Source: Lachnospiraceae bacterium
Lineage (GTDB): Bacteria; Bacillota; Clostridia; Lachnospirales; Lachnospiraceae
NCBI GenBank assembly: GCA_017626325.1
Contig: JAGAIZ010000078.1
Span: 1-40,130, forward strand
Length of the DNA stretch: 40,130 bases
Reading direction: 5' to 3'
Part shown: in pieces, positions 8,832 to 23,893 of the stretch
Position numbering within the stretch: position 1 is the stretch's first letter
Layout of the letters: each line of letters starts with the position of its first letter
The notes under the pieces: generated by a model
What the model saw: only the letters and a program-made list of their open reading frames with translations
The model's database searches: none
What the model was told of the DNA's origin: nothing
Translations under genes and position numbers: made by a program

Positions 8832-8921
8832 CTACTAAAATAGCTAAAATTTAATTATAAATCAATAGAAATTTAAGATTTATAAAGAGCTTATAAAATG
8901 AAACCGGATGGAGAAACAGAA

Positions 8922-9929
8922 ATGATACAAAAATTGGTTCTTGGAGTAGATTTGGGATGGATGACGCAGTTAGAGGATATGGGGATGCGCTGGGTAGATG
9001 AGAAGGGGCAGGAAACAGACCTGCTCGACGACGTCATTGCCAAAGGAGCGGATGCGGTCAGACTGCGGGTATTTGTTGATCCGCCGAAGGACGCCTACTG
9101 GCAGAAGGCTGAGGATGTGCTGTGTATGCTGGGCTACTGCGATGCGCAGAGCGTGCTGCAGGCGGCGAAAAGAGTGCGGGAGAAGAAGCTTAAGCTGATG
9201 CTTGATTTTCATTACAGCGACCATTTTGCGGATGCGCAGATTCAGGATATCCCTGAGGCGTGGCTTTCCGACAGCGACGAGGAACTTGCGGAACACGTCT
9301 ATGCGCATACGAAGGAGGTGCTGACGCTTTTTAAGGAGGAGGGCATATGTCCGGAGTGGGTACAGGTAGGCAATGAGATCAATCCGGGACTTCTGCTTCC
9401 GAGAGGAGACGTCAGGGAGAATCCGCAGCTTATGGTAAAAGTGCTGAACCGGGGATATGACGCGGTGAAGGAGTGTCTGCCGGACTGTCAGGTCATCACC
9501 CATCTGGCCGGCGTGACCTCGAAGCGGGGGTGCGACCCATTTCTGGACGCGTTCTTTGCGTTGGGCGGCAAGACGGATATTCTGGGCTTTTCCTATTATC
9601 CGTTCTGGGATAAAAAGATGGACAGCGACGAGCCGGCGCGTTTCTACAATCCGCTGATTACATATGCTCAGAAATTCGGCAAGCCCGTGATGATCTGTGA
9701 GGTGGGAGAAGAGGCAACCCAGGAGGAACGGTCTGCGGAGGTAATAGCCAATACCATAGAGGCCGTTCTGCAGGTGCCTGATCATCAGGGACTTGGCGTA
9801 TTCTTCTGGGAACCGGAGGTCAGCGCGGATATGGTGCCCGACGGGTATCCGCTGGGAGCGGCAAGGCTGGTTGCGGATAAGACGCTGCAACTGACGGAGG
9901 CGCTTGCGGTATACAGAAAGTATAGATAG
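8922..9929 (+). CDS. GH53-type arabinogalactan endo-beta-1,4-galactanase
   Basis: A 335-residue TIM-barrel enzyme with clear GH53 marks: GVDLGWMTQLEDMG at the start, ADAVRLRVFVDPP, MLDFHYSDHFADAQIQDIP, WVQVGNEINPGLLLP with acid/base Glu152, and KPVMICEVGEE with the nucleophile expected at Glu260. The family cuts beta-1,4-galactan of pectin type I arabinogalactan. No signal peptide is present, so this copy should be cytoplasmic, unlike most GH53 enzymes, and may act on imported galacto-oligosaccharides. GGAGA seven bases upstream supports ATG 8922; an ATG at 8898 is in frame but has no good ribosome site. It opens a plus-strand operon: the permease gene follows within 30 bases. Confidence 0.88.
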   Translation: MIQKLVLGVDLGWMTQLEDMGMRWVDEKGQETDLLDDVIAKGADAVRLRVFVDPPKDAYWQKAEDVLCMLGYCDAQSVLQAAKRVREKKLKLMLDFHYSDHFADAQIQDIPEAWLSDSDEELAEHVYAHTKEVLTLFKEEGICPEWVQVGNEINPGLLLPRGDVRENPQLMVKVLNRGYDAVKECLPDCQVITHLAGVTSKRGCDPFLDAFFALGGKTDILGFSYYPFWDKKMDSDEPARFYNPLITYAQKFGKPVMICEVGEEATQEERSAEVIANTIEAVLQVPDHQGLGVFFWEPEVSADMVPDGYPLGAARLVADKTLQLTEALAVYRKYR

Positions 9930-9954
9930 AAGAAAGGAAAGTGTGAGAGAAGTG

Positions 9955-10896
9955 ATGAAGAAGAAAAGACAAAAGGGGCTGTCCCCGTCGCCGCTTAAGG
10001 TGATTCAGAAACATTGGATGCTGCTTCTGATGCTGGCTCCGGCAGTTATCTACGTATTGATTTTCAGTTATGCGCCTATGACGGGCATCGTGCTTGCGTT
10101 TAAGAAATATCAGTATGCGGGCGGAATCTACGGTTCGCCGTGGAACGGGCTTAGCAATTTCAAGGCCCTCCTGATATCCGGCAAGCTGGGGCAGGTAACA
10201 AGGAATACGTTGCTGTATAACGTGGCGTTTATCTTCTTAGGCGTTATCTGCGAGATGGGAAGTGCGATCTTAATCAACGAACTGACCAGCAAATATTTCA
10301 AGAAGGGCGCGCAGACGCTGATGTTTCTGCCCTACTTCATAAGCTGGGTTGTGGCGGGCGCCATTATGTACAATATCTTCAATTATGAAAAAGGCGTGTT
10401 CAACCATATCTTAAATTTCTTCGGCGCGACGTCCTTTGACTTGTATAACACGCCGGGTGCATGGCCTTTCGTGCTGGTGTTCCTGAAATTATGGAAAGGA
10501 ACGGGATATGGCTCTGTAGTGTATCTGGCGGCGATTACGGGTATGGATCAGGAGATGTTCGAGGCGGCTTCCATAGACGGGGCAAGCGCATGGCAGAAGA
10601 TCAAGTATCTGACGATCCCTTCGCTGATTCCGACGATGATGGTTCTGGTGCTTCTGGCAATCGGCAATATCTTCAGAGGCGATTTCGGACTCTTCTACCA
10701 GACGGTAAAGAGCAGCGCGCTATTGCAGCCGATGACGGACGTTATTGACACTTATGTGTTCCGCTTGCTGATCGATACCGGAGATATCGGCGTATCCGCT
10801 GCGGCAGGCTTGTATCAGTCCGTTCTGTGCTTTATCACAATTACGATCTGTAACAAGCTGGTTAAGAAGGTAAATCCTGATTATGCACTCTATTAA
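9955..10896 (+). CDS. ABC transporter permease, LplB type
   Basis: About 313 residues with six predicted membrane segments (for example MLLLMLAPAVIYVLIFSY) and the permease EAA loop AASIDGASAWQKIKYLTIPSL, the site that docks the ATPase. It belongs to the carbohydrate-uptake CUT1 group, LplB/YteP subfamily, which handles complex polysaccharide breakdown products such as rhamnogalacturonan or mannan oligomers. It pairs with the next permease and the lipoprotein downstream. The start is not certain: ATG 9955 follows GAGAGAAG, while GTG 9943 lies after AGAAAGGAAA. No ATP-binding subunit is encoded in the window, as is common for CUT1 systems powered by a shared MsmX-type ATPase. Confidence 0.9.
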   Translation: MKKKRQKGLSPSPLKVIQKHWMLLLMLAPAVIYVLIFSYAPMTGIVLAFKKYQYAGGIYGSPWNGLSNFKALLISGKLGQVTRNTLLYNVAFIFLGVICEMGSAILINELTSKYFKKGAQTLMFLPYFISWVVAGAIMYNIFNYEKGVFNHILNFFGATSFDLYNTPGAWPFVLVFLKLWKGTGYGSVVYLAAITGMDQEMFEAASIDGASAWQKIKYLTIPSLIPTMMVLVLLAIGNIFRGDFGLFYQTVKSSALLQPMTDVIDTYVFRLLIDTGDIGVSAAAGLYQSVLCFITITICNKLVKKVNPDYALY

Positions 10897-10916
10897 TGGA
10901 AGGAATGGAGAGAATT

Positions 10917-11834
10917 ATGAAAGCAGAAGCTTATCAAAGCCCAAAGGTTAAAAGAGGGAAGGACGCGGTGGCCATCAGCGTTATCGGTTATGTGGTAATC
11001 GGTCTGTTTGCCCTGATTTGTCTGGCTCCCTTTTATCTGATTGTGATTGCATCCTTTACGGATGAGACGGCCCTGATCCGAAATGGCTATCCGCTCTGGC
11101 CGCAGATCAAAGATTTCAGCGTGCAGGCATATCAATTATGTCTGAAGAATCCGACGGCGATTCTGCACGCATACGGAACCACCATAGGCGTGACGATTGT
11201 CGGAACATTTCTGGCGGTGCTGATGGCGACTATGACAGGGTATGTGCTGTCCCGTAAGGATTTTCCGTGGAGAAATCAGATTTCCTTCTTCTTTTTCTTC
11301 ACGACGCTGTTTAACGGCGGACTGGTTCCCTGGTACTTAATCTGTATCAGATACATGCACTTTAAGAATACCTATTTAGGACTGATTCTGCCGCTGATGT
11401 TTTCCGTGTGGAATATGATTATTGCCAAGTCCTTCATGAGCGGTATCCCGGCGGAGATTTCCGAATCCGCCAAGATGGACGGCGCAAATGACATGGTGAT
11501 TTTCGTCCGGCTGATTCTGCCGCTCAGCAAGCCGCTTATCGCGACGTTAGGTCTGTTCGCGGCGCTGGCATACTGGAATGACTGGTACAACTGCATGTTA
11601 TTCCAGACAGAGGAGAATATGTTTACCCTGCAATATTATCTGCAGAGAGTCTTAGGCAGCGCGGAGGCAATGAGGATTGTGGCGGAGAAGTCGGGTATGG
11701 CGCTTCCGTCTATACCGCTGGAGAGTATGAAGATGGCCATGACGATTATTGCTACGGGACCGATCGTACTGCTCTACCCCTTCGTACAGCGCTACTTCGT
11801 GAAGGGGCTGACGATCGGCGCGGTGAAAGGCTAA
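10917..11834 (+). CDS. ABC transporter permease, LplC/YtcP type
   Basis: A 305-residue partner permease with six predicted membrane helices (first: VIGLFALICLAPFYLIVIASF) and an EAA loop at ESAKMDGANDMVIFVRLILPL. The C-terminus VQRYFVKGLTIGAVKG is typical of carbohydrate permeases of the MalG/LplC side. I prefer ATG 10917 behind GGAGAG; ATG 10905 and an ATG at 10896 that overlaps the preceding stop codon are alternatives. The gene is tightly coupled to the LplB-type permease, so both should be made together and form the membrane pore of the importer. Confidence 0.9.
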   Translation: MKAEAYQSPKVKRGKDAVAISVIGYVVIGLFALICLAPFYLIVIASFTDETALIRNGYPLWPQIKDFSVQAYQLCLKNPTAILHAYGTTIGVTIVGTFLAVLMATMTGYVLSRKDFPWRNQISFFFFFTTLFNGGLVPWYLICIRYMHFKNTYLGLILPLMFSVWNMIIAKSFMSGIPAEISESAKMDGANDMVIFVRLILPLSKPLIATLGLFAALAYWNDWYNCMLFQTEENMFTLQYYLQRVLGSAEAMRIVAEKSGMALPSIPLESMKMAMTIIATGPIVLLYPFVQRYFVKGLTIGAVKG

Positions 11835-11853
11835 ATTAAGAAACCAATAAGAC

Positions 11854-11897
11854 TGACAGGCAGCAGGACGGAAGAGAAGCCAATCGCTGTCCTGTCA
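11854..11897 (+). other. intercistronic stem-loop before the binding-protein gene
   Basis: Arms TGACAGG-CAGC (11854-11864) and GCTG-T-CCTGTCA (11886-11897) can pair with a single bulged T. No run of T follows, so it is probably not a full terminator. Such stem-loops often stabilise or process transcripts so that binding proteins are made in excess over permeases. Confidence 0.55.
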
Positions 11898-11921
11898 TAA
11901 AAAGAAAAGGAGAGATTTGAT

Positions 11922-13580
11922 ATGAAAATGAAGAAAGTACTTTCTATGCTGTTAGTGGCAGCAATGACCGCTTCGGTATTATCCGGGTGCGGCGGCTCTG
12001 CTTCCGGTACGGCGGCCCAAGACGGCGGCACGGAAGCTGCGGAGAGTGAAGGAACAGAGGCGGCTGCGGCAGATACAGCGGCGGTAAGCGACGCGCTGGC
12101 AGGCCTTCCGGAAGTCATAGGAGAAGGAACGGTTGCCGCTACGCCTGAGATGTATGCCAACACGGATTTGAGCAAAGAGGAAACGGTCAACATGTATCTG
12201 ATTGGCGATACGCCCAACGACTGGGACGAGGTACTCGGACTTGTCAATGAGTATCTGGCGCCTTTTAACACCAAGCTGGCAGTAACCTTCATGAGTTGGA
12301 GTGATTACCAGACGATGTATTCTCTGGTGCTTGCAGGCGGCGAGGATGTGGATATTATCTTTACGGCTCCCTGGTGCTATATGTACACAGAGGCGGCGAA
12401 GGGTTCCTTCTATGAACTGACAGAGGATTTCAGGGCGGCGTATATGCCGCTTACCAATAAGTATCAGGCGGCGGAAAGCTGGGACGAAACAACTATCGCG
12501 GGCAAAACAATCGCCGTACCCACCAACACGGCGCAGGCGGCAGGTAAGATTGTGGCAATCCGTCAGGATATCGCCGACAAATACGATATCAAGTCTCTGG
12601 ATAGCTGGGAGGACTATAAGAATTTCTGTCTCACCATTGCGGAGAAGGAGACGCCGGATACGGGCGTTTACGCGCTGGCCGCTTCTGTTGACAACAACGA
12701 ATTGTGGGATGTATACCGTCAGCAGTACGATACCTTCCTTGCACTGGACAGCGATTACCTGGATCTGATGTACATTGACAACGGCGGACTTCCTGCGGCA
12801 GATGACATCTCCCTTGTCTATGAGACAGAAGAGTTCCGCAAGTACGCATACGATATGAAGGAACTGGCAGACGCCGGTGCGTGGAGCCGTTCCGCACTGA
12901 CCAACACGGTAACAGACGACGATGCCTTCGGTGCATTACAGGGCGCTTCTATTGCATGGAACACCTCTGTATTCACCTATATCAAGCAGGCGGAGCAGAC
13001 AGAGGGTGTTGTGGGCGCTGCTTATGACCTGACCAAGGATCATTTCGTAGGCTGTGAGGCTTATTCCAACAATGATATGGCGATCACGGCAAGCTCTAAG
13101 AATCCTGAGAGAGCGGCTATGGTGCTTGACCTGATTAAGATGGATACGTATCTGAATCATCTGCTGATTCTCGGTGTGGAGGGTAAGCATTATTCCATCG
13201 ATGAAGATAACAAGTATCAGGAGTTGGACGCTGCAGCGGATTATGCGGCATATGCCATCTCCGCTTCCTGGGCAATCAAGAACGGAGAATTGGGTGAAAC
13301 GGGCTCAGATCCGAGACAGACTGCTATCACAGATGACTGGGAAGACCGCGTTAAGAGTAATCCGACGATTACCTTCGTCTTCGATGACAGCTCGGTAGAA
13401 TCCTACAAAGCGGCGGTCAATGCGGTATTGAACGATTATGTGCCGATGATCGAGCTGGGACTGGTGGACGATGTGGACGCAACCCTTGATAAGATGATCG
13501 AGGAGTGCTACAACGCAGGCTTCCAGGAAGTGATGGATGAATTCAAGAGACAGTACGAGGAATGGTATGCGACCAGATAA
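11922..13580 (+). CDS. extracellular oligosaccharide-binding lipoprotein, LplA type
   Basis: A 552-residue solute-binding protein. The signal peptide ends in the lipobox VLSGCGG, with the Cys near residue 23 as lipid anchor. An Ala/Glu-rich linker follows, and then a type I sugar-binding fold (VNMYLIGDTPNDWDEV ... DVDIIFTAPWCYMYTEAA). The C-terminal section resembles the DUF3502 tail of LplA-like proteins (LDKMIEECYNAGFQEVMDEF). A strong AAAGGAG site precedes the ATG. It is the capture subunit for the two permeases upstream; the substrate is inferred to be an arabino- or galacto-oligosaccharide from the neighbouring hydrolases, not from the protein itself. Confidence 0.92.
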   Translation: MKMKKVLSMLLVAAMTASVLSGCGGSASGTAAQDGGTEAAESEGTEAAAADTAAVSDALAGLPEVIGEGTVAATPEMYANTDLSKEETVNMYLIGDTPNDWDEVLGLVNEYLAPFNTKLAVTFMSWSDYQTMYSLVLAGGEDVDIIFTAPWCYMYTEAAKGSFYELTEDFRAAYMPLTNKYQAAESWDETTIAGKTIAVPTNTAQAAGKIVAIRQDIADKYDIKSLDSWEDYKNFCLTIAEKETPDTGVYALAASVDNNELWDVYRQQYDTFLALDSDYLDLMYIDNGGLPAADDISLVYETEEFRKYAYDMKELADAGAWSRSALTNTVTDDDAFGALQGASIAWNTSVFTYIKQAEQTEGVVGAAYDLTKDHFVGCEAYSNNDMAITASSKNPERAAMVLDLIKMDTYLNHLLILGVEGKHYSIDEDNKYQELDAAADYAAYAISASWAIKNGELGETGSDPRQTAITDDWEDRVKSNPTITFVFDDSSVESYKAAVNAVLNDYVPMIELGLVDDVDATLDKMIEECYNAGFQEVMDEFKRQYEEWYATR

Positions 13581-13735: not shown

Positions 13736-15001
13736 TCATCCGGGTTCCGCAATCCTGCTGACGCCCACGTAGATCTCCGAGATTTTGTACCAGGTAGGAT
13801 AGTCCACGATGCCGGACTGGGGCAGATTGAAGATGCGCTGGAAGGTGCGTACCGCGTTGGCAGTACCGGAGCCGTAGACGCCGTCTGCCGTGATGCGGGG
13901 GATAGCGGGGTAGTTCTGGGCGATGCGGTTAAGCTGCTGCTGGATCTGGAGCACTTTGTCGCCGGAGGCGCCGATATTTAAGTTATAGCCGGGCCAGGAG
14001 GAGGGGACGCCGGATACAGCCACGGCAGAATTGATATACATGTCGCTGCCGTAATAGTAGCGGATGATTTCGATAGGGGAATAGCCTTCGTCTCCCAGAT
14101 ACTTGGAGCCCCACTGGCTTAAGCCGCTGCAGGTCACGTTCTTGCCGTCGCAGTAAGAAGTAAAGATGGGCTGGCGCACACCGGGGCGGGAGAGGAAATT
14201 GGCGAAGATAGTATCTACCAGTCTGTCGATGTTGGTGTAGATGTTGCGTCCGCGGATCCATTTCTGGTCGTAGGCGGTGGAAGACGTAATGGTGAAATTA
14301 TAGCCTTGATTCCGGTACCACTCGGTGTAGACGCGATTCAGCGTCACAGACATAATCGCCAGCGTGTTGGCATAGATGGCGCTTTCCGGCCATGTGGCGT
14401 AGATTTCCGAGGAAACCACGTTCTTGATATAATCTCTGTAACGGACATAGTAGTTGCCGGCGGTGGAGTCGGAGGGCACGCCGTCGTGTACGATGATGTA
14501 TTCGGGAATAACCACGCGGCTTAAGACGATCTCTCCGGTCTCGTCCATTGGTTTGATTTCATCCTCGGGGATTTTGGGCGGATAATCGCCGTAGAGGGTG
14601 TGGTCCGGAATGGTAATGGTCTCTTCCGGCTCCCGGGATACTTCGGTAGGAGTTAATTCAATATTCTGGACGGCGGTTACATCCGGCAGCACTTCTACGC
14701 CGGATACGGTTACCGGCTCGTAGCCGGGGGCGGTTACTGTTACGGTATATTCGGAATAGGGCATGGGTGAGTTGGGGGTTAAGCTGTATTCCAGGGGCGG
14801 AGTCCTCAAGTCTACGGTATCCGTCTGACCGGAGGAATCAGTGTTTAAAGTCTCTAATGTGCTGTCCGGCTCTCCGGTGAAGGAGATGGATATGGCAGCA
14901 TTCTGAATGGGAATCTGTCCAACGTCAGCGGTAACATTGATCTGCAGTCTGCCGGTATCTATGGTATCGGTCTGCATACTTTTTAAAATGGGCTTTTCCA
15001 T
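13736..15001 (-). CDS. SpoIID-like and peptidoglycan-binding domain protein
   Basis: A 421-residue protein with three parts. Residues about 20-120 form a carboxypeptidase-regulatory-like beta domain (GRLQINVTADVGQIPIQNA, VTAPGYEPVTVSGVEV). Residues about 180-335 resemble SpoIID/LytB: SEIYATWPESAIYANTLAI aligns with the region of the catalytic Glu, and CSGLSQWGSKYLGDEGYSP with the Gly-Ser-Gln-Trp-Gly motif and the terminal YYYG. Residues about 345-415 form a PG_binding_1 domain (DGVYGSGTANAVRTFQRIF). SpoIID trims denuded peptidoglycan during engulfment. GGAGGAT before this ATG sets the start. There is no signal peptide or membrane helix, which is odd for a wall enzyme and suggests expression inside the mother cell or non-classical release. 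The sporulation link is inferred. Confidence 0.75.
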   Translation of the reverse strand: MEKPILKSMQTDTIDTGRLQINVTADVGQIPIQNAAISISFTGEPDSTLETLNTDSSGQTDTVDLRTPPLEYSLTPNSPMPYSEYTVTVTAPGYEPVTVSGVEVLPDVTAVQNIELTPTEVSREPEETITIPDHTLYGDYPPKIPEDEIKPMDETGEIVLSRVVIPEYIIVHDGVPSDSTAGNYYVRYRDYIKNVVSSEIYATWPESAIYANTLAIMSVTLNRVYTEWYRNQGYNFTITSSTAYDQKWIRGRNIYTNIDRLVDTIFANFLSRPGVRQPIFTSYCDGKNVTCSGLSQWGSKYLGDEGYSPIEIIRYYYGSDMYINSAVAVSGVPSSWPGYNLNIGASGDKVLQIQQQLNRIAQNYPAIPRITADGVYGSGTANAVRTFQRIFNLPQSGIVDYPTWYKISEIYVGVSRIAEPG

Positions 15002-15067
15002 AAGATATATCCTCCATTTGGGTTTAGCCTGCAAATTCTGTCTTAGTTTTAGGGTATGCATTTGAGG

Positions 15068-15097
15068 TTGCACATGCTACCTTATAAATGATATAAT
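15068..15097 (+). promoter_or_regulatory. promoter of the DUF5717 operon
   Basis: A perfect -10 box TATAAT (15092-15097) follows TTGCAC (15068-15073) at an 18-base spacing. Transcription would start near 15104, inside the first of two palindromes, leaving a leader of about 120 bases. Confidence 0.6.
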
Positions 15098-15098
15098 A

Positions 15099-15137
15099 GG
15101 CTAAATCAAAGATTTAGCCACTAAATCAAAGATTTAG
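15099..15137. repeat. tandem palindromes at the DUF5717 operon start site
   Basis: A perfect palindrome with arms GGCTAAATC (15099-15107) and GATTTAGCC (15111-15119) around AAA is followed, exactly 20 bases on, by a second copy with arms CTAAATC/GATTTAG (15121-15137). They begin one base after the -10 box, which is a classic repressor position. The 20-base period puts both copies on nearly the same face of the helix. At RNA level both could form small hairpins. Confidence 0.7.
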
Positions 15138-15139
15138 CC

Positions 15140-15164
15140 GGAAGAATCCTCTCGGGATTCTTCC
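15140..15164 (+). other. leader hairpin upstream of the DUF5717 gene
   Basis: Arms GGAAGAATCC (15140-15149) and GGATTCTTCC (15155-15164) are perfectly complementary. No T run follows, so it is not a normal terminator. It sits about 60 bases before the start codon and could affect transcript stability. Confidence 0.5.
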
Positions 15165-15227
15165 AAGTCTGCGCGGGCGGAAGTTTTTAGACAACAACGA
15201 AAGCATCGAGAAGCATGGAGTGGAGTT

Positions 15228-18200
15228 GTGAGACAGGTTATAGAAGAAATACGTAATGGTAATTTTAATTTTGACAATGGTTCCTTAGATTTTTCCTGTC
15301 CACGTATAGAGTTATCTCTGCATGCAGATACGGTGGAGGAAGGCTCTTTCTTTGTCTATGGACCCAGGGGACGGGCGACGGAAGGATATGTGGTGTCGTC
15401 TGATCTGCGCATGGAATGCATGACGAGGAACTTCAGTGGGAGTCAGGACGAGATATTCTACCGGTTTGATGCCCGTGGAACGGAAGAAGGGGAAGAGGTC
15501 AAGGGCGCTTTCCATATGATATCCAATCAGGGAGAATATTATCTTCCTTTTTCTGTGGTCATTGTACCGAGGGTTATTACTTCGAGTCTGGGCAATATCA
15601 AGAATCTGTTCCATTTTACGAATCTGGCCAAAACGAATTGGGATGAGGCGGTTAAGCTTTTCTACTCTCAGGAGTTTGGGGAAATATTTAACGGCAACGA
15701 CAATAAATATTATGCCGCCTATAAGGGATTGTCGGCAGTTTACGGCAATGAGCATAATGTAGAGGAATTCCTGTTGGAGATTCATAAGAAAAAAACAGTG
15801 GAATTTATTCCAGAGGAAACCAGGATTAAGATAGAGGATCCGCTTGAGAAGACGCGGTATACGCTGGGAATTAACCGGAATGGCTGGGGCTATACGCATT
15901 TGCGGATTAAGACGGAAGGAGAGTTTCTGTGTGTCGAGGAAGATACGGTCACAGACTCTGCTTTTTTAGGTAATCTTTACCGGTTATATTATTATGTGGA
16001 TCATGAGAAGCTTCATGCCGGGAATAATTACGGCGCTATTGTGTTAGAGCGGGAGCATGAAACGATACGAATACCGGTTACGGTAATACAGCATGTCACT
16101 TCCAGAAAGACATTGGGGCTGCACCGGGAGAAAAAGAGGCTGACTGTTTCTTTGATGGAGTATTATCAGGCATTTCGCTTAAAAAAGATCAGTGCCAGAA
16201 CCTGGATGACGGAGACGAACAAGCTGTTAAACCGTATAGAGGAAGTGGATGGCAGGGACGTCTCCATGAAGCTTTTTCAGGGACAGGTGCTTTTGACGGA
16301 AGAGCGGGACAATGAAGCCAGATGGCTGATTGAGAAGCAGGAAGAGCGGGTTCTTGCCATGCGGGAGGAACGCCCGGAGGTATGGTGCTATTATTTGTAT
16401 CTGACCACCTTGTACAGTAAGGATGATCAGTATGTAGACGATGCCGCAGAACTTGTGAAGGACATCTATCTGCGCAACAGGGGCAACTGGCGTATTGCCT
16501 GGCTATTGATGTATCTGTCTGAGGAATATGTCAAAAGTCCTTCCCGCAGATGGGCTCTGCTGGAGGAATTGGTGCAGTATCACTGCAGCTCGCCGGTTAT
16601 CTATATTGAAGCGTGGCATATTCTGTGCATGAATCCCGCTATGCTCATGAAGCTGGGTAATTTCGAACTGCAGGTTCTGTGGTATGCGGTAAGAAATGAT
16701 CTGATGAAAGACGAAATCGTCATGCAGATCGTATATCTGGCACAGAAGCAGAAAACTTATTCGGAGCAGTTGTTTCGTATTCTGAAGGGGTGTTATGAGA
16801 GAAAGCCGCAGAATGATATTCTGCATGCAATCTGTACACTGTTAATCAAAGGGAACTGTCAGGGAGAGAAATTCTTCCCGTGGTATCAGGCCGGCGTGGA
16901 AGAAAATCTTCGTATTACCCGGCTGTATGAATATTATATGATGTCCATATCTTTGTCCTATGACGGGCCGCTGCCGAAGATGATTCTGATGTACTTCGCG
17001 TATCAGAGCGATTTGCGTTATGATATTACCGCGTATCTGTATGCTTATGTCTATAAGCACAGAGAGGAAATTCCTGATATTTATGTAAACTATTGTGCCG
17101 CTATGGAGCGTTTCGTGTTAGAGCAGATACGGCATGGCAGGATTAATAAGGATCTGGCATATCTGTACAGCAATCTGATCAGTCTGCCGATGATCGATGA
17201 AGAAAGCGCGGGACAGCTTGCGTCGCTTCTGTTCATGCGGGAGATCCGGGTGGATTCCGACCGGATTACGGAAGTGATTCTTGTATATCCTTATGGCATC
17301 GGGCAGGCGGTGTATCCGGTTTCGGCAGGCAGGGCGATGGCGCCTGTGTATGATTCCGACTGCAAGATTCTTTTGGGCGACGGCAAAGGGAACCGATATA
17401 CCGCCAGCGTGAAATATCAGGTGCAGGCTGTTATTTCCCCTGCGAAGCTGGCGCTTATGATTTCTCCTTTCGTGCGGGAACATCTGGGATATGCAGTCTA
17501 TGCATGTTACGAATGTCAGAACAGTCCGGCAGTACATGAGGACAATGCGGATCTGTTTGTCCGTCTGACGGAGTCTGATCAGATAGAAGAAAGCATGAAG
17601 CAGGAAATCCGTATGATGCTGGTGGATTTCTATTATGAGAAGGACAGGATGCGGGAACTGGACGAATATCTCCTGGCGTTAAAGCCGGAGAATATGCGCA
17701 AGCGTGATCATAAGAAGATCATCCGCTATATGACGATCAGGGGAATGTATGAAGAAGCCTATGACTGGGTAAAGCGTGTGGGACCGTATCATGTGGATGC
17801 CAAGGTGCTGCTGAAGCTTTGCAGCAGGCTTCTGGACCGGGAAGAGAGAGAAGAAGATCCGGTTATGACGGGAGTGCTGTTCCATATCCTGCGCAAAGGC
17901 AAGTACGATGAGAATGTATTGGCATATCTGGTCAGATATTATTCCGGCAGCATCAAGGATATGCGGGATGTCTGGAAGACGGCTTATTCCTTCGGGACAG
18001 AGACTTACAGCCTGTGCGAGCGTATGCTTGTGCAGATGCTTTATACAGGCTCCCATGTGGGAGAAAAGGGAGAGATATTCCGCTACTATAGTAAGAATGG
18101 CGGCAATGAAGAGCTTATGGCGGCGTTTCTGTCGAAGGGCTGTTATGATTATGCGGTGGGCGAGCAGATCACGGAGCCGTATATTTTCGAGAGCGTTCAG

Positions 18201-18794
18201 GAATTGTGCCGCAGGCAGGTGCCGCTTCATCTGGTCTGCAAGATCGCTTTTCTCCAGTATTATGCGGAGAATAAGGGGGAACAGACAGAGAAATGCAGAC
18301 AGGTATGCGTCCGCTTCCTGGAAGACCTGCTGGCGGAGAATATTGTGCTGCCTGTCTATAAAGAGTACCAGGGATATCTTCCCCGGATGGATGGATACCA
18401 GGATAAAACCATGGTGGAATATCGTGCCAGACCCGGCGGCAGGGCCGTGATCCATTATGTGATACAGAATGAGGGCGGCGGAGAGAATGAATACCGCAAA
18501 GAAGAGATGAAGGATATGTTTGCCGGAATCTGTGTAAAGGAATTCGTCCTTTTCTTCGGGGAACGCCTGCAGTTCTATATAACGGAGGAAGAAGACGGCA
18601 GGGAACAACTGACGAAGAGCGGTACCATCAGCAGAGGCGACAGCGGACAGGAAAGCTTCGAGAGCAGATTCAGCATGCTCAACGACATTATGATAGGCAT
18701 GAATCTGCAGGATTATGATACGGTAGATCATTTGCTGCGGGAATATTACAGGCAGGATTTTATGGTGGATAAGATATTCCGTATAAGACTCTGA
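15228..18794 (+). CDS. DUF5717 family protein, large beta/helical-repeat protein
   Basis: An 1188-residue protein of unknown function, recognised from memory as DUF5717. No signal peptide or membrane segment is seen, so it should be cytosolic. Two beta-rich blocks open it (about 15-120 and 200-300, the latter with ETIRIPVTVIQHV). A long helical array follows (about 310-650 and 750-1090), in which short paired helices rich in Tyr, Leu and Arg resemble TPR-like repeats. A beta block sits near 680-750 (AVYPVSAGRAMAPVYDSDCKILLGDGKGNRY) and a mixed C-terminal domain closes the protein (about 1060-1188). GTG at 15228 is the start, supported by GGAG seven bases upstream; no in-frame ATG is nearby. 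It opens a four-gene unit with the Hsp70-like, TPR-like and coiled-coil genes, and is probably the scaffold of that group. Confidence 0.85.
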   Translation: MRQVIEEIRNGNFNFDNGSLDFSCPRIELSLHADTVEEGSFFVYGPRGRATEGYVVSSDLRMECMTRNFSGSQDEIFYRFDARGTEEGEEVKGAFHMISNQGEYYLPFSVVIVPRVITSSLGNIKNLFHFTNLAKTNWDEAVKLFYSQEFGEIFNGNDNKYYAAYKGLSAVYGNEHNVEEFLLEIHKKKTVEFIPEETRIKIEDPLEKTRYTLGINRNGWGYTHLRIKTEGEFLCVEEDTVTDSAFLGNLYRLYYYVDHEKLHAGNNYGAIVLEREHETIRIPVTVIQHVTSRKTLGLHREKKRLTVSLMEYYQAFRLKKISARTWMTETNKLLNRIEEVDGRDVSMKLFQGQVLLTEERDNEARWLIEKQEERVLAMREERPEVWCYYLYLTTLYSKDDQYVDDAAELVKDIYLRNRGNWRIAWLLMYLSEEYVKSPSRRWALLEELVQYHCSSPVIYIEAWHILCMNPAMLMKLGNFELQVLWYAVRNDLMKDEIVMQIVYLAQKQKTYSEQLFRILKGCYERKPQNDILHAICTLLIKGNCQGEKFFPWYQAGVEENLRITRLYEYYMMSISLSYDGPLPKMILMYFAYQSDLRYDITAYLYAYVYKHREEIPDIYVNYCAAMERFVLEQIRHGRINKDLAYLYSNLISLPMIDEESAGQLASLLFMREIRVDSDRITEVILVYPYGIGQAVYPVSAGRAMAPVYDSDCKILLGDGKGNRYTASVKYQVQAVISPAKLALMISPFVREHLGYAVYACYECQNSPAVHEDNADLFVRLTESDQIEESMKQEIRMMLVDFYYEKDRMRELDEYLLALKPENMRKRDHKKIIRYMTIRGMYEEAYDWVKRVGPYHVDAKVLLKLCSRLLDREEREEDPVMTGVLFHILRKGKYDENVLAYLVRYYSGSIKDMRDVWKTAYSFGTETYSLCERMLVQMLYTGSHVGEKGEIFRYYSKNGGNEELMAAFLSKGCYDYAVGEQITEPYIFESVQELCRRQVPLHLVCKIAFLQYYAENKGEQTEKCRQVCVRFLEDLLAENIVLPVYKEYQGYLPRMDGYQDKTMVEYRARPGGRAVIHYVIQNEGGGENEYRKEEMKDMFAGICVKEFVLFFGERLQFYITEEEDGREQLTKSGTISRGDSGQESFESRFSMLNDIMIGMNLQDYDTVDHLLREYYRQDFMVDKIFRIRL

Positions 18795-18816
18795 CATAAG
18801 GACAGAGTAAAGCTCA

Positions 18817-18930
18817 CTCTGATGGACCGGAGCGGAGATTAGATTGAGGAATCGCTCTGATGAGCCGGAACAGAGATTAGGTTGAGAAATTGCTCTGGTG
18901 AGCCGGAATGAAGATTGGTGTGTAGAATCT
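18817..18930 (+). repeat. three 38-bp tandem repeats ending at the DUF5716 start codon
   Basis: Three imperfect copies begin at 18817, 18855 and 18893. Each starts CTCTGATG or CTCTGGTG, continues GAGCCGGAA or similar, then (A)GATTAG-TTGAG-AAT. The third copy is the most diverged and ends exactly one base before ATG 18931. The unit length is not a multiple of three and nothing suggests the copies are translated. They fill the whole gap between the DUF5717 and DUF5716 genes apart from about 20 bases. Confidence 0.85.
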
Positions 18931-20277
18931 ATGTTTCTTGAGAAAAGAGAGGAGAACAAATTACATAACGGAAGCGTGCTGGTGGGGTATGACCTGGGGG
19001 AGCAGTATTCCCAGATCAGCTACTGCGTCTATGGAGAAGGCGATGTGGAGATGGTAGCGACTGTGATCGGCACCAGACAGTATAACATCCCGACTATGTT
19101 ATGTAAACGAAAAGGCGTCAATCAATGGTATTACGGCAAGGACGCTGTGAAGCACAGAGAAGAAGAGGATATGTTTCCGGTGGAAGGACTTTTGTCTCTG
19201 GCGAAAAAGGGCGAGGATGTGGAACTGGATGGAGAGACCTATGATCCGGTTGCGCTCCTGACGCTTTTCATAAGGCGCAGCATGACATTGATGAATCTGA
19301 TTGCCGCGATTGAAAATATAGACGGGATCATGTTTACCGTGGATGAGCTGGATGACCGGATGGTGGAGGTGCTGGCACAGGCGGCGGTGAACCTGAATCT
19401 GAAGACGTCACGCATATATTTCCAGAGTCATACGGAGAGCCTGTATTTCTTCGTGCTGCATCAGCCGCCGGAATTATGGAATTATCAGGTGATTGCCTGT
19501 GAGCATAACGGTATGCGGCTTAAGACCTACCGGATGGAGTGTAATAAACATACGACGCCCATCGTGGCGCTGATCGAGGAACAGACCTATGAGACGCTGG
19601 TGCTTCCGGAAGAAAGGGCCGAAGATTCTTCCGGTGAGAACACGCAGGCAGAGCAGGAAGAACGAATAAAGCAGGACGCCTACCGGATGGCGGATGAGCG
19701 TTTCTTAGGGATTCTGCAGAAGATGTGCGAAGGAAGAATCGTCTCGTCGGCGTATTTGTTGGGAGATGGTTTCCGTGCCGGATGGGATGAACAATCCTTG
19801 CAATTTCTCTGCCGCAACAGGAGAGTTTTCAAAGGAAATAACCTTTTTAGCAGAGGAGCATGTTATGGACTCCTGGAAAAGTTAGACCCCAGCGAGATAG
19901 GACAGAAGCATGTTTTTCTGGGTAAGGACAAGCTGAAATCCAATATCGGCATGAATGTGCTGCGGCAGGGCAGAGAATCTTATTTTGCACTGTTAGATGC
20001 CGGAGAGAACTGGTATGAGATCCGAAAGGAATGCGAATTCCTGTTAGGGGATGAGAAAGAGCTTGCTTTCGTGGTCACGCCGCTTGACGGGAAAGATAAG
20101 GAAAGCAGGGTGATATCACTCCGGAATGCAGATTCGGGAGGTGCGCCTTTTACAAGATACCGTCTGGAGGCGTCTATGTGTGCGGCGGATACTGTTCGGG
20201 TCAAAGTGACAGATCTGGGTTTCGGAGAGTTATTTCCCGCAAGCGGACAGGTGTGGGAGGAGTCTTTTACAGTATAA
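18931..20277 (+). CDS. DUF5716 protein with degenerate Hsp70/actin-like fold
   Basis: A 448-residue protein, recognised as the DUF5716 family. It follows the Hsp70 nucleotide-domain order. VGYDLGEQYSQISYC matches the phosphate-1 loop (DLGTTxS). IPTMLCKRKGVNQWYYGKDAVKHR matches the 'TPS ... GxxA' segment. AYLLGDGFRAGW is in the place of the adenosine LVGG motif, and FSRGACYGLLE in the place of the final GAA helix. The expected phosphate-2 motif (DxGGGT) is replaced by CEHNGMRLKTY, so ATP hydrolysis may be lost. A C-terminal beta domain (about 335-448, ending DLGFGELFP) stands where Hsp70 has its substrate domain. The start is uncertain: a GTG at 18898 would put the N-terminus inside the 38-bp repeats, and ATG 18931 has no clear ribosome site. 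Function unknown. Confidence 0.8.
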   Translation: MFLEKREENKLHNGSVLVGYDLGEQYSQISYCVYGEGDVEMVATVIGTRQYNIPTMLCKRKGVNQWYYGKDAVKHREEEDMFPVEGLLSLAKKGEDVELDGETYDPVALLTLFIRRSMTLMNLIAAIENIDGIMFTVDELDDRMVEVLAQAAVNLNLKTSRIYFQSHTESLYFFVLHQPPELWNYQVIACEHNGMRLKTYRMECNKHTTPIVALIEEQTYETLVLPEERAEDSSGENTQAEQEERIKQDAYRMADERFLGILQKMCEGRIVSSAYLLGDGFRAGWDEQSLQFLCRNRRVFKGNNLFSRGACYGLLEKLDPSEIGQKHVFLGKDKLKSNIGMNVLRQGRESYFALLDAGENWYEIRKECEFLLGDEKELAFVVTPLDGKDKESRVISLRNADSGGAPFTRYRLEASMCAADTVRVKVTDLGFGELFPASGQVWEESFTV

Positions 20278-20301
20278 GAAAGGGGAAAGGAGCGTGCCGG
20301 T

Positions 20302-21147
20302 ATGAGTCGGATTATCTTGGGGACAGGCAGATATGCCGAGAAACCCTTTTACATGGATAAATTTTATGTAAACTTGTATTCGGTGGAGGAATTGTGCTAT
20401 CTTATTGTGGATAAGGCAGAACTGCTGGATCAGGATGTGATGCTGCCGGAGCTGGTAAAATGGCTGGATGAACAGTGCGGGTTGAACCAACTGGCGCATA
20501 CCTTGTATACGCTGCTGAACCAAAAGGCTTCCGCAGCCGCTTTTGCAGGCACGATATTGGAGTATGTGAATCTGTACCCGGAAGATGTGATTGCAAGGAC
20601 CGGGGAGATAATAAGAAGCAACGAAGGATTAAATCCCTGCGAACGGAAGAAGGCGAAGGCGGATTATCTGCTGCAGAACCGGAAGTATCACGCGGCGATA
20701 GAACAGTACCATATACTGCTTGCTCAGATACCGGAAACAGACAGATTGCTGCGGGCGAAGATCCTGCATAACATAGGCTCGGCGTACGCGGGCATGTTCA
20801 TGTTCAGGCAGGCGTCGGATTTTTTCCTGCAGTCTCATGAGACAGACCAGAATAAGGAAAGCCTGCTGTCGTATCTTGCCGCGCTGCGCATGAGCTGTCA
20901 GGATAAAGACTATATCGCTTTTATTTCCGAGCATCCCGAATACCATGACGCGTCGCTTAAGGTAGAGCGGCAGATAGAGCAGGCGTCCGGGCAGTTCGAA
21001 GGGACGGATGAGAACCGGATGCTTTTTACCCTGCAGGTATTTAAAGAAGAGGGCAACAGTAATCTGGGAAGTACCGTGCATTATTATAATGAGATAGAGA
21101 AGCTGACGGCAGATCTTAAGGAGCAATACAGAGATTATGTATCATAG
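20302..21147 (+). CDS. TPR-like protein of the DUF5717/DUF5716 operon
   Basis: A 281-residue, mostly helical cytosolic protein. Residues about 25-105 form an unrecognised helical domain. Residues about 112-200 read as two to three TPR-type helix pairs (AKADYLLQNRKYHAAIEQYHILLAQIP and AKILHNIGSAYAGMFMFRQASDFFLQSHE). A charged C-terminal tail follows. It begins 24 bases after the DUF5716 stop with AAAGGAG upstream, so the two are co-transcribed. TPR proteins often dock onto Hsp70-type partners, which fits the neighbour, but that interaction is inferred. I do not recognise a named family. Confidence 0.75.
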   Translation: MSRIILGTGRYAEKPFYMDKFYVNLYSVEELCYLIVDKAELLDQDVMLPELVKWLDEQCGLNQLAHTLYTLLNQKASAAAFAGTILEYVNLYPEDVIARTGEIIRSNEGLNPCERKKAKADYLLQNRKYHAAIEQYHILLAQIPETDRLLRAKILHNIGSAYAGMFMFRQASDFFLQSHETDQNKESLLSYLAALRMSCQDKDYIAFISEHPEYHDASLKVERQIEQASGQFEGTDENRMLFTLQVFKEEGNSNLGSTVHYYNEIEKLTADLKEQYRDYVS

Positions 21148-21176
21148 CTGTTACGACAGCCTGAATGGAGACAAGT

Positions 21177-22361
21177 ATGGGTTTTATCAGAAACTTACTG
21201 GAAAAATTTAGACGGAAGGATGAAGAGGCGTATGATGAGGAGTCATGGGATGAGGAAGAGGAAGTCAGGCAGATAGACTATCATGATAAGGAGCAGAGGA
21301 ACGACTATGTCAGGAATTGTCTGGAGCGGATGGCAGATGCCACCAAAGAGCTGGAGAATCTGAACTTCGAATACGACATGGTGACTTCTTATCTGAAGGA
21401 TATGGAAGAAATCGAGGCGCTGCCCCCGGAAGAGAGTGAACAGCTTAAGGAATGTGCCAAGAGAGTAGCGCTTCTGCAGGACAGCAAGGCGGATTTCATG
21501 GGCAGACCGCGGAGAATGACTGATGAGCAGTATAACCGGATGGAGCGTATCGCCGATCAGGTCCAGGAGGGACATGATAAACTGACTGAGGCGGAGAATT
21601 ACCAGAAGCTGATTAAGCAGGATCTGAACCGGCTGGATGGTGAGCGGCACGCATATCAGTACCGGAAGAATGAAGTGATGGGAATTATTGCGGATACGAA
21701 AGGAATGGCGCTTATCTGCGTGACTGCGCTGGGCTTGTGTATTCTGCTGCTTCTGTTATTACAGTTTTTCCTGGAGATGGACACGAAGCTTGGGTATCTT
21801 CTGACAGCGGCAGCGGCGGCATTCGCCATCACCGTGATCTATGTCAGGCATATGGATGCGAAGCGGGAGCTGCGGCGCGTGGAGACTGGCATCAATAAGA
21901 TTATCCTGCTGCAGAATAAGGTGAAAATACGATATGTGAATAATACGAACCTGCTGGATTATCTCTATCTGAAATATGGGGTGTCCAGCGTTCAGGAACT
22001 GGATGATATGTGGCAGAAGTATCTGCTGGAGAAGGATGAGAGGGAGAAATACCGCAGGGCAGAGCTGGATCTGGATTACAGCCAGCAGGAACTGCTGCAG
22101 ATCTTGAAGCGCTATCAGATTAAGGATCCTGCGATCTGGCTGCATCAGACCGAGGCGATTCTGGATCATAAAGAGATGGTGGAGATCCGGCATAATCTGA
22201 TTATCAGACGGCAGTCTTTAAGACGCCGGATGGATTATAACAAAGACGTCGTGGCTGCCTCTTCCCAGAAGGAAATCAAAGAACTGGTGGAGAAATATCC
22301 GCAGTATGCGAAAGAGGTCATGGCGACGGTGGACGAGTATGAGAAGAAGTTTCAGGAGTAG
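21177..22361 (+). CDS. two-TM coiled-coil membrane protein of the operon
   Basis: A 394-residue protein with a very acidic N-terminal stretch (KDEEAYDEESWDEEEEVRQ), a long heptad-like helix up to about residue 165, two adjacent membrane helices (about 175-225: ALICVTALGLCILLLLLLQFF and YLLTAAAAAFAITVIYV) with only a few residues between, then a second long coiled coil to the C-terminus. The short hairpin of membrane helices implies that both coiled-coil arms face the cytosol. GGAGACAAGT before ATG 21177 favours this start over ATG 21165. As the only membrane protein of the four-gene unit it is the probable anchor of any complex formed by the others. No known family recognised. Confidence 0.75.
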   Translation: MGFIRNLLEKFRRKDEEAYDEESWDEEEEVRQIDYHDKEQRNDYVRNCLERMADATKELENLNFEYDMVTSYLKDMEEIEALPPEESEQLKECAKRVALLQDSKADFMGRPRRMTDEQYNRMERIADQVQEGHDKLTEAENYQKLIKQDLNRLDGERHAYQYRKNEVMGIIADTKGMALICVTALGLCILLLLLLQFFLEMDTKLGYLLTAAAAAFAITVIYVRHMDAKRELRRVETGINKIILLQNKVKIRYVNNTNLLDYLYLKYGVSSVQELDDMWQKYLLEKDEREKYRRAELDLDYSQQELLQILKRYQIKDPAIWLHQTEAILDHKEMVEIRHNLIIRRQSLRRRMDYNKDVVAASSQKEIKELVEKYPQYAKEVMATVDEYEKKFQE

Positions 22362-22441
22362 GAAATGGGCGCAGGGGAGAAACAGAAAATCAGAAGCCTC
22401 TTTGCTTTAGGAGAGCGTTTCGGAATGGAGAAAAGTTGAAA

Positions 22442-23893
22442 ATGAACACGGAACAGGAAAGTAAACTGGAACAGGAAATGGACAAGCTTGGAGAAGAGTG
22501 CGGCGTATTCGGCATCTATGACTTCGACGGAAACGACGTGGCGTCTACGATTTATTATGGACTTTTCGCTCTCCAGCACAGGGGACAGGAAAGCTGCGGT
22601 ATCGCGGTCAGCGATACAAGCGGTCCTAAGGGCAAGGTGTTAAGCGCCAAAGAGATGGGCTTGCTCAATGAGAATTTCACCCCGGATATTCTGGAGAAGC
22701 TCAAAGGCGATATCGGCGTGGGACATGTGCGCTATTCCACTGCCGGAAGCAGCACGAGGGAGAACGCCCAGCCATTGGTTCTCAATTATGTGAAGGGAAC
22801 GCTGGGACTGGCGCATAATGGCAATCTGATCAACGCGCCGGAACTGCGGCATGAACTGGAATATTCCGGCGCTATTTTCCAGACTACCATAGATTCGGAA
22901 GTGATTGCTTACCATATCGCCAGGGAGCGGTTAAACAGCAAGACCGTCGAAGAGGCGGTGGGGCGCGCCATGAAGAAAATCAAGGGCGCTTATTCCCTGA
23001 TCGTCATGTCGCCCCGCAAGCTGATCGGCGCAAGAGATCCTTACGGCTTCAAGCCCCTCTGCATCGGCAGACGGGACAACGCCTATATTCTGGCGTCGGA
23101 GACCTGCGCGCTGGATACCATAGGCGCGGCCTATGTAAGAGACGTGGAGCCAGGCGAGATTGTGACCATTTCCCCGGAGAAGGGAATCGAATCAGATAAA
23201 AGCATGTGCCTGCCCAGAGAACAGCACGGCAGATGTATCTTCGAGTATATTTATTTCGCGAGACCGGACAGCCATATCGACGGCGTAAGTGTCTACGAGT
23301 CCAGAATCAAGGCAGGACGGTTCTTAGCCATAGATTCGCCTGTGGACGCTGATCTGGTGGTGGGTGTGCCGGAGTCAGGCAACTGCGCGGCACTGGGCTA
23401 TTCCATGCAGTCGGGGATTCCCTACGGGCAGGCTTTCGTCAAGAACGCATATGTGGGGCGGACCTTCATCAAGCCCAAGCAGAAGAGCCGTGAGAGCAGT
23501 GTGCGGGTGAAATTAAACGCCATCAAGGAAGCGGTCAACGGCAAGCGAATCATCATGATAGATGATTCCATCGTGCGGGGTACTACCTCGGACCGCATCG
23601 TGAAGATGCTCCGCGAGGCAGGCGCCAAAGAAGTGCATATGAGAGTCAGCTCGCCGCCGTTTCTCTATCCCTGCTATTTCGGAACGGACGTACCGGCCCG
23701 CGAGCAGCTTATCGCCTACAACCGTTCCGTAGAAGAGATTTGCCGGATGATCGGTGCGGATTCGTTGGGGTATCTGCGGATGGAACGTCTGTCTGAACTG
23801 GTGAACGGACTGGATATCTGCAGAGGATGTTTTACCGGGAAGTATCCCATGGAGCCGCCGACACAGGATATTCGCGGAGAGTATGAGCGGTAA
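22442..23893 (+). CDS. purF: amidophosphoribosyltransferase
   Basis: First committed enzyme of purine synthesis: PRPP plus glutamine gives phosphoribosylamine. The N-terminal nucleophile-hydrolase domain starts at GEECGVFGIYDF; the Cys, about residue 20, must be exposed by removal of a propeptide. The phosphoribosyltransferase domain has the PRPP loop IIMIDDSIVRGTTSDRIV. Cys residues in GRCIFEYIYF, FLYPCYFGTD and DICRGCFTG match the four ligands of the [4Fe-4S] cluster of the Bacillus-type, oxygen-sensitive enzyme. The start is ATG 22442, or TTG 22436 (five bases after GGAG). Only 80 bases separate it from the coiled-coil gene, with no obvious terminator or promoter, so transcription from the operon upstream may reach it. 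Confidence 0.96.
   Translation: MNTEQESKLEQEMDKLGEECGVFGIYDFDGNDVASTIYYGLFALQHRGQESCGIAVSDTSGPKGKVLSAKEMGLLNENFTPDILEKLKGDIGVGHVRYSTAGSSTRENAQPLVLNYVKGTLGLAHNGNLINAPELRHELEYSGAIFQTTIDSEVIAYHIARERLNSKTVEEAVGRAMKKIKGAYSLIVMSPRKLIGARDPYGFKPLCIGRRDNAYILASETCALDTIGAAYVRDVEPGEIVTISPEKGIESDKSMCLPREQHGRCIFEYIYFARPDSHIDGVSVYESRIKAGRFLAIDSPVDADLVVGVPESGNCAALGYSMQSGIPYGQAFVKNAYVGRTFIKPKQKSRESSVRVKLNAIKEAVNGKRIIMIDDSIVRGTTSDRIVKMLREAGAKEVHMRVSSPPFLYPCYFGTDVPAREQLIAYNRSVEEICRMIGADSLGYLRMERLSELVNGLDICRGCFTGKYPMEPPTQDIRGEYER

Follow-up and report, generated by a model that had tools for sequence, protein, structure and literature searches.

A Lachnospiraceae DUF5717-DUF5716 operon as the probable remainder of an undescribed Hsp70-GrpE machine

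Introduction

The accessible text of a 2021 review recognises three prokaryotic Hsp70 types and links HscC to membrane-anchored J proteins (PMC8215388). Eubacteria encode a single GrpE, as stated in the accessible part of a second source (PMC4753570), and the available sections of Kaur et al. (2020) cover systems of firmicutes and actinobacteria in which HSP70, GrpE and FNIII-TPR proteins accompany a central GTPase (PMC7159879). Here we analyse a 40,130-nucleotide stretch of DNA from Lachnospiraceae bacterium (GCA_017626325.1, contig JAGAIZ010000078.1), hereafter the window, and an operon of four genes within it, A, B, C and D, at 15228..22361. The operon matches the Pfam families DUF5717 and DUF5716 (PF18984, PF18983, PF18980) fully and above cut-off; no function is assigned to these families. 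In the open-access literature, no paper was found that addresses what DUF5716 or DUF5717 do, the sole full-text match being a motif listing with no bearing on them, or that treats the expanded form of the operon described below, and open-access searches on pseudo-Hsp70, lidless Hsp70, Lachnospiraceae signature proteins, DnaK paralogues and pseudoenzymes returned nothing useful. A previous sequence-only reading had described the four genes as an operon with no gene of known function. This description is correct within the window, but relatives reveal an Hsp70-GrpE ancestry, and the set appears to be a reduced form of a larger Hsp70-GrpE operon present in sister families. The operon thus looks like what is left of an undescribed Hsp70-GrpE machine.

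Results

Gene B (18931..20277, + strand) encodes a DUF5716 protein, with a DUF5716_C match at E = 2e-98 and 329.5 bits (cut-off 34.7). DUF5716_C matches reach beyond Lachnospiraceae: 89 of 196 genomes of the order match, 22 of them Lachnospiraceae, and genomes of the other families often match twice. The gene order in these sister families is A, B1 (Hsp70), X (ending in a GrpE domain), B2 (the DUF5716 counterpart), B3 (Hsp70), B4 (Hsp70 fused to vWA), C and, in some, D. The complete run A-B1-X-B2-B3-B4-C is present in nine loci from six families (L040, L041, L044, L049, L053, L190, L194, L195 and L200), with some genes of L044 split or short. Two loci (L191 and L196) carry the expanded run with a weakly matching C, and insertions or scattered or missing pieces occur in L042, L043, L045-L048, L051/L052, L192, L193 and L197. 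The B3 gene of L045-L047 overlaps its neighbour and was missed by the calling of open reading frames; a search with PF00012 detects B3 in genome G707.

The HSP70 (PF00012) scores of B1, B3 and B4 of L040 are 262.9, 215.3 and 308.8 bits (cut-off 20.6), and the matches stop at profile positions 492, 477 and 509 of 599, leaving out the C-terminal lid region. B4 runs on into a vWA domain with a DTTGSM motif. The three proteins also exceed the MreB_Mbl cut-off, at scores far below those for HSP70, and B2 of the same locus still scores 53.4 bits with PF00012. Protein X has ~560-650 residues and a C-terminal GrpE domain (PF01025; the two scanned proteins score 42.5 and 43.9 bits, above the cut-off of 25.8), and its profile matches the GrpE structure 4ani among the PDB sequences (E = 1.8e-4). 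X was found at E < 1e-30 in 69 of the 196 genomes of the order, from 14 families; 15 more genomes gave only weak matches, which fell largely in the region that X has in common with ordinary GrpE. The scanned operons showed no J-domain gene.

Window B itself has no match to PF00012 up to E = 1, and its profile returned only one chance match among the PDB sequences (E = 0.94). Profile comparison with the sister proteins matched B to B2 at 100% (E = 4.5e-45) and B to B3 at 98.4% (E = 4.2e-15), in both cases over nearly the full length. In a tree rooted with seven DnaKs and two further Hsp70s of ~565 residues, B2 and the Lachnospiraceae B form one group of 19 rows (100/100), within which the Lachnospiraceae B are nearest to the B2 of family f125 (100/99). 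B1, B3 and B4 form separate groups, apart from DnaK and from the two ~565-residue Hsp70s. The grouping of B with B2 thus indicates that the three Hsp70s and X were lost, whereas the divergent Hsp70 stayed. B2 is fast-evolving: between families, its identity to the first row is 26-43%, compared with 58-80% for B1, 59-77% for B3 and 63-76% for B4.

A common alignment showed that the DnaK residues Lys70, Glu171, Thr11 and Asp201 are all present in 49/49 distinct B1, B3 and B4 sequences and in 0/114 distinct Lachnospiraceae B; among the 21 B2 sequences they occur in 0, 3, 4 and 0, respectively. Window B has Leu and His at the columns of Lys70 and Glu171. The phosphate-2 loop is lost in B, and of the 73 positions of subdomain IIB a median of 19 is kept in B against 62 in B2. 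Invariant glycines occur in the C-terminal part of B, a region that aligns to the end of B3. B is therefore probably a pseudo-ATPase, since the catalytic residues are absent despite the homology to Hsp70. The ATPase-fold partner proposed from the sequence alone is borne out as to fold ancestry and not as to catalysis. According to the accessible part of PMC4753570, GrpE rotates subdomain IIB and thereby opens the nucleotide pocket. The disappearance of the GrpE-like X, the active Hsp70s and most of the IIB of B is in keeping with an abandoned ATP cycle.

The losses were also followed through whole genomes. Searches with PF00012 found a normal DnaK in 24/24 genomes (12 Lachnospiraceae and 12 sister genomes), to which the sister genomes add Hsp70s of the sizes of B1, B3 and B4. 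None of the 12 Lachnospiraceae genomes contains an Hsp70 of ~700 residues, and B1 and B3 were not found in them. Four of the 12 (G566, G344, G222 and G528) carry an extra Hsp70 of ~570-650 residues with 321-656 bits, compared with 148-252 bits for B1 and B3; the one from G344, the only one placed on the tree, joins DnaK. X was not found in the Lachnospiraceae genomes of the order sample, a draw of the same kind as the one with 22 family members among its DUF5716_C matches.

DUF5717, the family of A, is present in 293 of 299 sampled Lachnospiraceae genomes, nearly one per genus, and in 295 after a second search. Among the six genomes without a match, two (G396 and G426) hold A in pieces, which leaves four, two of them more than 90% complete. 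Among the best 80 of 495 confirmed matches in a separate scan, most named records are Lachnospiraceae, such as Kineothrix alysoides and Parablautia, and a few carry other labels, such as Muribaculaceae. On the strength of these names, the family sampled here is taken to be Lachnospiraceae. The Pfam model of DUF5717 matches 5 of 299 genomes in a sample of the phylum, with four matches above cut-off, all in Lachnospiraceae, and a fifth, weak one elsewhere. In wider samples of the class (6/196) and the phylum (4/299), matches were found only in Lachnospiraceae; with so few of the order's genomes in either sample, the sister families lie outside their coverage. The impression from Pfam that DUF5717 is confined to one family was rejected, as an iterated profile finds A in other families of the order.

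Gene order was compared in 41 family loci, consisting of the window and 40 fetched loci chosen by hand from rows with coordinates, all of which contain A because of how they were selected. In 41/41 loci A neighbours B and B neighbours C on the same strand, with median gaps of 15 and -4 bases, and C-D are adjacent in 19/41. A set of 80 named loci, biased toward close relatives and in some cases cut by contig ends, showed spacings of -60 to 150 bases for A-B in 75/80, B-C in 70/80 and C-D in 69/80. This gene order is far beyond chance, and its conservation across Lachnospiraceae is not confined to close relatives. The near-universal retention (293-295/299), together with the invariant columns in B, argues for a function that has been kept; B is probably catalytically dead and yet not decaying. 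One genome of another family (G749 of f129, locus L050) carries a Lachnospiraceae-type A-B-C, the B of which nests inside the Lachnospiraceae B, and either transfer or contamination could explain it.

An aminotransferase gene lies beside A on the opposite strand in 15/41 family loci and in 10/16 sister loci of the second fetch; one further sister locus has it ten genes away, and three of the 16 have no A in the stretch. The copy of L069 was identified by Pfam and the others by similarity. The shared neighbour supports the same chromosomal place for both forms, with the operon apparently reduced in situ. In the window, this place is occupied by a divergent gene with SpoIID and peptidoglycan-binding domains (13736-15073). 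That gene was considered as a part of the operon and rejected, because 15/41 family loci carry the aminotransferase there instead.

Protein A (15228..18794, + strand, 1188 residues) matches DUF5717_N at E = 0 and DUF5717 at 1.7e-101 (1037.9 and 339.9 bits, cut-off 25), covering its whole length with DUF5717. In several sister families its N-terminal part (~1-290) has a gene of its own, and the remainder shows TPR-like matches there; TPR_19 is above cut-off in the A halves of L200 and L186, and the A profile matches designed TPR proteins among the PDB sequences (E = 2.4e-6). A is split into genes of ~390 and ~890 residues in six loci of the second sister fetch and also in L044, and is a single frame in Lachnospiraceae and in other sister loci. 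The occurrence of both split and fused forms suggests that the two halves work together, and A is proposed as a scaffold. Protein C (20302..21147, + strand, 281 residues) has only TPR matches below cut-off (TPR_12, 22.0 bits against 30.1). Its sister homologue in L040 has strong TPR matches and passes the cut-off, and an iterated profile joins the sister and window proteins, so that the earlier designation of C as TPR-like is sustained through its relatives. Protein D (21177..22361, + strand) is the only one of the four with hydropathy above 1.6 in 19-residue windows (20 windows, around residues 171-227). It has two predicted membrane helices between charged, coiled-coil-like arms, the coiled coil being assessed by eye, and aligns with relatives; its Pfam match is below cut-off, with no family above it. 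The membrane protein anticipated by the sequence-only reading is recovered here.

The open reading frame listing showed four same-strand frames, as read before, and they are real genes of one operon. Longer openings are possible for B (from 18898) and D (from 21165). Since aligned relatives mostly begin near 18931 for B (consensus MF...) and near 21177 for D (MG...), these starts are preferred, and they are the starts implied by the previously given gaps of 136, 24 and 29 bases. A G-rich stretch resembling a ribosome site, judged by eye, precedes the GTG of A at 15228. A single TG-extended candidate promoter was found upstream at 15069..15097 (+ strand; TGCACA, a spacing of 17, TATAAT, TG before the -10; 10/12 in a consensus scan). 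The one promoter of the sequence-only reading thus has a matching site, which counts as weak evidence because the scan total of 19 promoter-like sites only modestly exceeds that in shuffles (11.8 +/- 3.2). Immediately past the candidate -10 box lie two tandem 20-base palindromes followed by another hairpin (15101-15163). The palindrome core has no other copies in the genome beyond these two, and an upstream palindrome with arms of at least 10 is present in 2/32 named relatives checked; it is perhaps an operator or a leader structure. The A-B spacer of the window is unusually long (103-136 bases against the median of 15 across the 41 loci) and is filled by a 38-base unit repeated 2.4 times with 85% matches (18817-18908). 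Rfam gave no match in 14900-22600, and NCBIfam gave no match over cut-off for A, B, C or D, with two weak matches for C.

Downstream, purF begins 74 bases after D in the window. The operon as a partner of purine genes was rejected, as many loci have other genes at that position. Elsewhere in the window, a GH53 glycosidase, two ABC permeases and a DUF3502 protein are consecutive at 8898-13580 and likely form a polysaccharide-uptake cluster, and a 1607-residue open frame lies at 34903-39726, close to the window end.

Discussion

The descent of the operon from an Hsp70-GrpE machine is well supported by the profile, tree and gene-order comparisons. We consider it about an even bet that an undescribed multi-Hsp70 class exists in many families of this clostridial order, in which a DUF5717 scaffold, a TPR adaptor and a membrane anchor go together with three canonical Hsp70s that show no lid match (including the vWA fusion), a pseudo-Hsp70 and a dedicated second GrpE-like exchange factor, and that the Lachnospiraceae shed every ATPase and the exchange factor, yet the pseudo-chaperone core became near-universal with a new, ATP-independent job at the membrane. 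The parts that remain are the scaffold, the pseudo-Hsp70 and the TPR-like protein, joined by the membrane hairpin in roughly half of the 41 loci. Our preferred explanation, with a probability of roughly 0.5, is that the operon encodes a membrane-tethered, ATP-independent pseudo-chaperone or adaptor left from that dedicated machine. A, B, C and D would form one complex at the inner face of the membrane, with D as the anchor where present, A as the scaffold and C as a TPR adaptor. Without an ATP cycle, B would use the substrate-domain-like C-terminal part that it has kept to hold unfolded segments or a client protein, and it may pass clients to the general DnaK-GrpE of the cell. The labels substrate-domain-like and scaffold derive from sequence comparison. 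The most likely present job would be the holding or recruitment of clients at the membrane independently of ATP, perhaps feeding the general DnaK. The chaperone-like character proposed earlier for the complex finds support in its origin.

Several observations weigh against this explanation. D is absent from 22/41 family loci, and in 22/22 of these genomes no D was found elsewhere except for three short weak matches (E = 5.7e-5 to 4.2e-4), with controls found in 3/3. D was therefore lost rather than relocated, and membrane anchoring cannot be general. Window C is only a weak TPR protein, and no co-chaperone or client gene is consistently linked to the operon. In the tree, two long B2 branches join each other and eleven rows have odd composition. 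The vWA part of B4 was found in 0/150 family genomes at E = 1e-20, a count from a search without a positive control. The P1 Asp is kept in 104/114 distinct B, or in 105/116 B rows with copies counted, and the adenosine-loop Gly and the Gly-Ala pair in 116/116 B rows, and because of these residues B may still bind nucleotide.

The retained P1 Asp and adenosine-loop Gly also speak for a B that is still a working ATPase or nucleotide switch acting through other residues, with the operon as a small active Hsp70 system. We regard this as improbable, because the catalytic Lys and Glu are present in 0/114, the phosphate-2 loop and most of IIB are gone, and the dedicated exchange factor is no longer there. 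A structural role, in which the actin-fold B and the scaffold A build a membrane-linked filament or cell-shape scaffold and chaperone activity is ancestral only, is unlikely, although it is the best placed of the alternatives. The actin fold is common to Hsp70, D is a membrane protein, and B1, B3 and B4 of the sister loci pass the MreB_Mbl cut-off. However, they do so far below their HSP70 scores, and B is most closely related to Hsp70 paralogues encoded next to a GrpE-like protein, not to MreB or ParM. The cytoskeletal option named in the sequence-only reading gained no evidence in either direction.

A conflict or stress-response module akin to the systems of Kaur et al., in which HSP70, GrpE and FNIII/TPR proteins are centred on a GTPase, is a slightly weaker candidate than the structural role. 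The accessible part of that work lists similar components (HSP70, GrpE, vWA and a TPR protein with a further domain; PMC7159879), and sister B3 and B4 match PADLOC PDC-M61B (3.9e-11 and 2e-7). These matches are read as a shared Hsp70 fold, and the PADLOC matches of sister B3, B4 and X are not trusted. In addition, none of the four window proteins matches PADLOC at E = 0.01, the operon is near-universal in one family with a conserved order, unlike patchy defence genes, and no GTPase was seen among the neighbours scanned, where no systematic search for GTPases was made. That the genes are merely co-transcribed and have separate functions is very improbable. The absence of D from 22/41 loci would fit such an arrangement; however, A-B-C are adjacent in every one of the 41 loci with short or overlapping gaps, the same parts occur together in other families, and some lineages encode both halves of A as one gene.

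On the pseudo-chaperone explanation, two unstudied Pfam families acquire an ancestry and a function that can be tested. An operon with several Hsp70s, one of them fused to vWA, and a GrpE-like factor of its own would extend the picture given in the accessible parts of PMC8215388 and PMC4753570, which name three prokaryotic Hsp70 types and one eubacterial GrpE, respectively. The Lachnospiraceae, an abundant gut-bacterial family, would show by natural experiment what a chaperone machine is still capable of once its motors are gone.

Comparison with known systems

Among the closest described systems is the bacterial DnaK-GrpE machine (PF00012, PF01025). The sister operons resemble it in having three Hsp70s and a GrpE-domain protein, and window B is kin of B2 and B3. 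They differ from it in that the matches of B1, B3 and B4 end before the lid, one Hsp70 is fused to vWA, X has ~560-650 residues, and a DUF5717 scaffold is present. The Lachnospiraceae operon differs further, with neither the ATPases nor X and with a B that lacks the catalytic residues. HscA and HscC, as described in the accessible text of PMC8215388, are likewise Hsp70 paralogues specialised away from DnaK. B1, B3 and B4 are groups of their own and score far below the HscA cut-off, a comparison made without an HscC reference sequence. The GAP1-N2 systems, in the available sections of PMC7159879, share linked HSP70, GrpE, a TPR-containing FNIII protein, vWA and membrane parts with the expanded operon, whereas A has no FNIII match and the operon is near-universal rather than sporadic.

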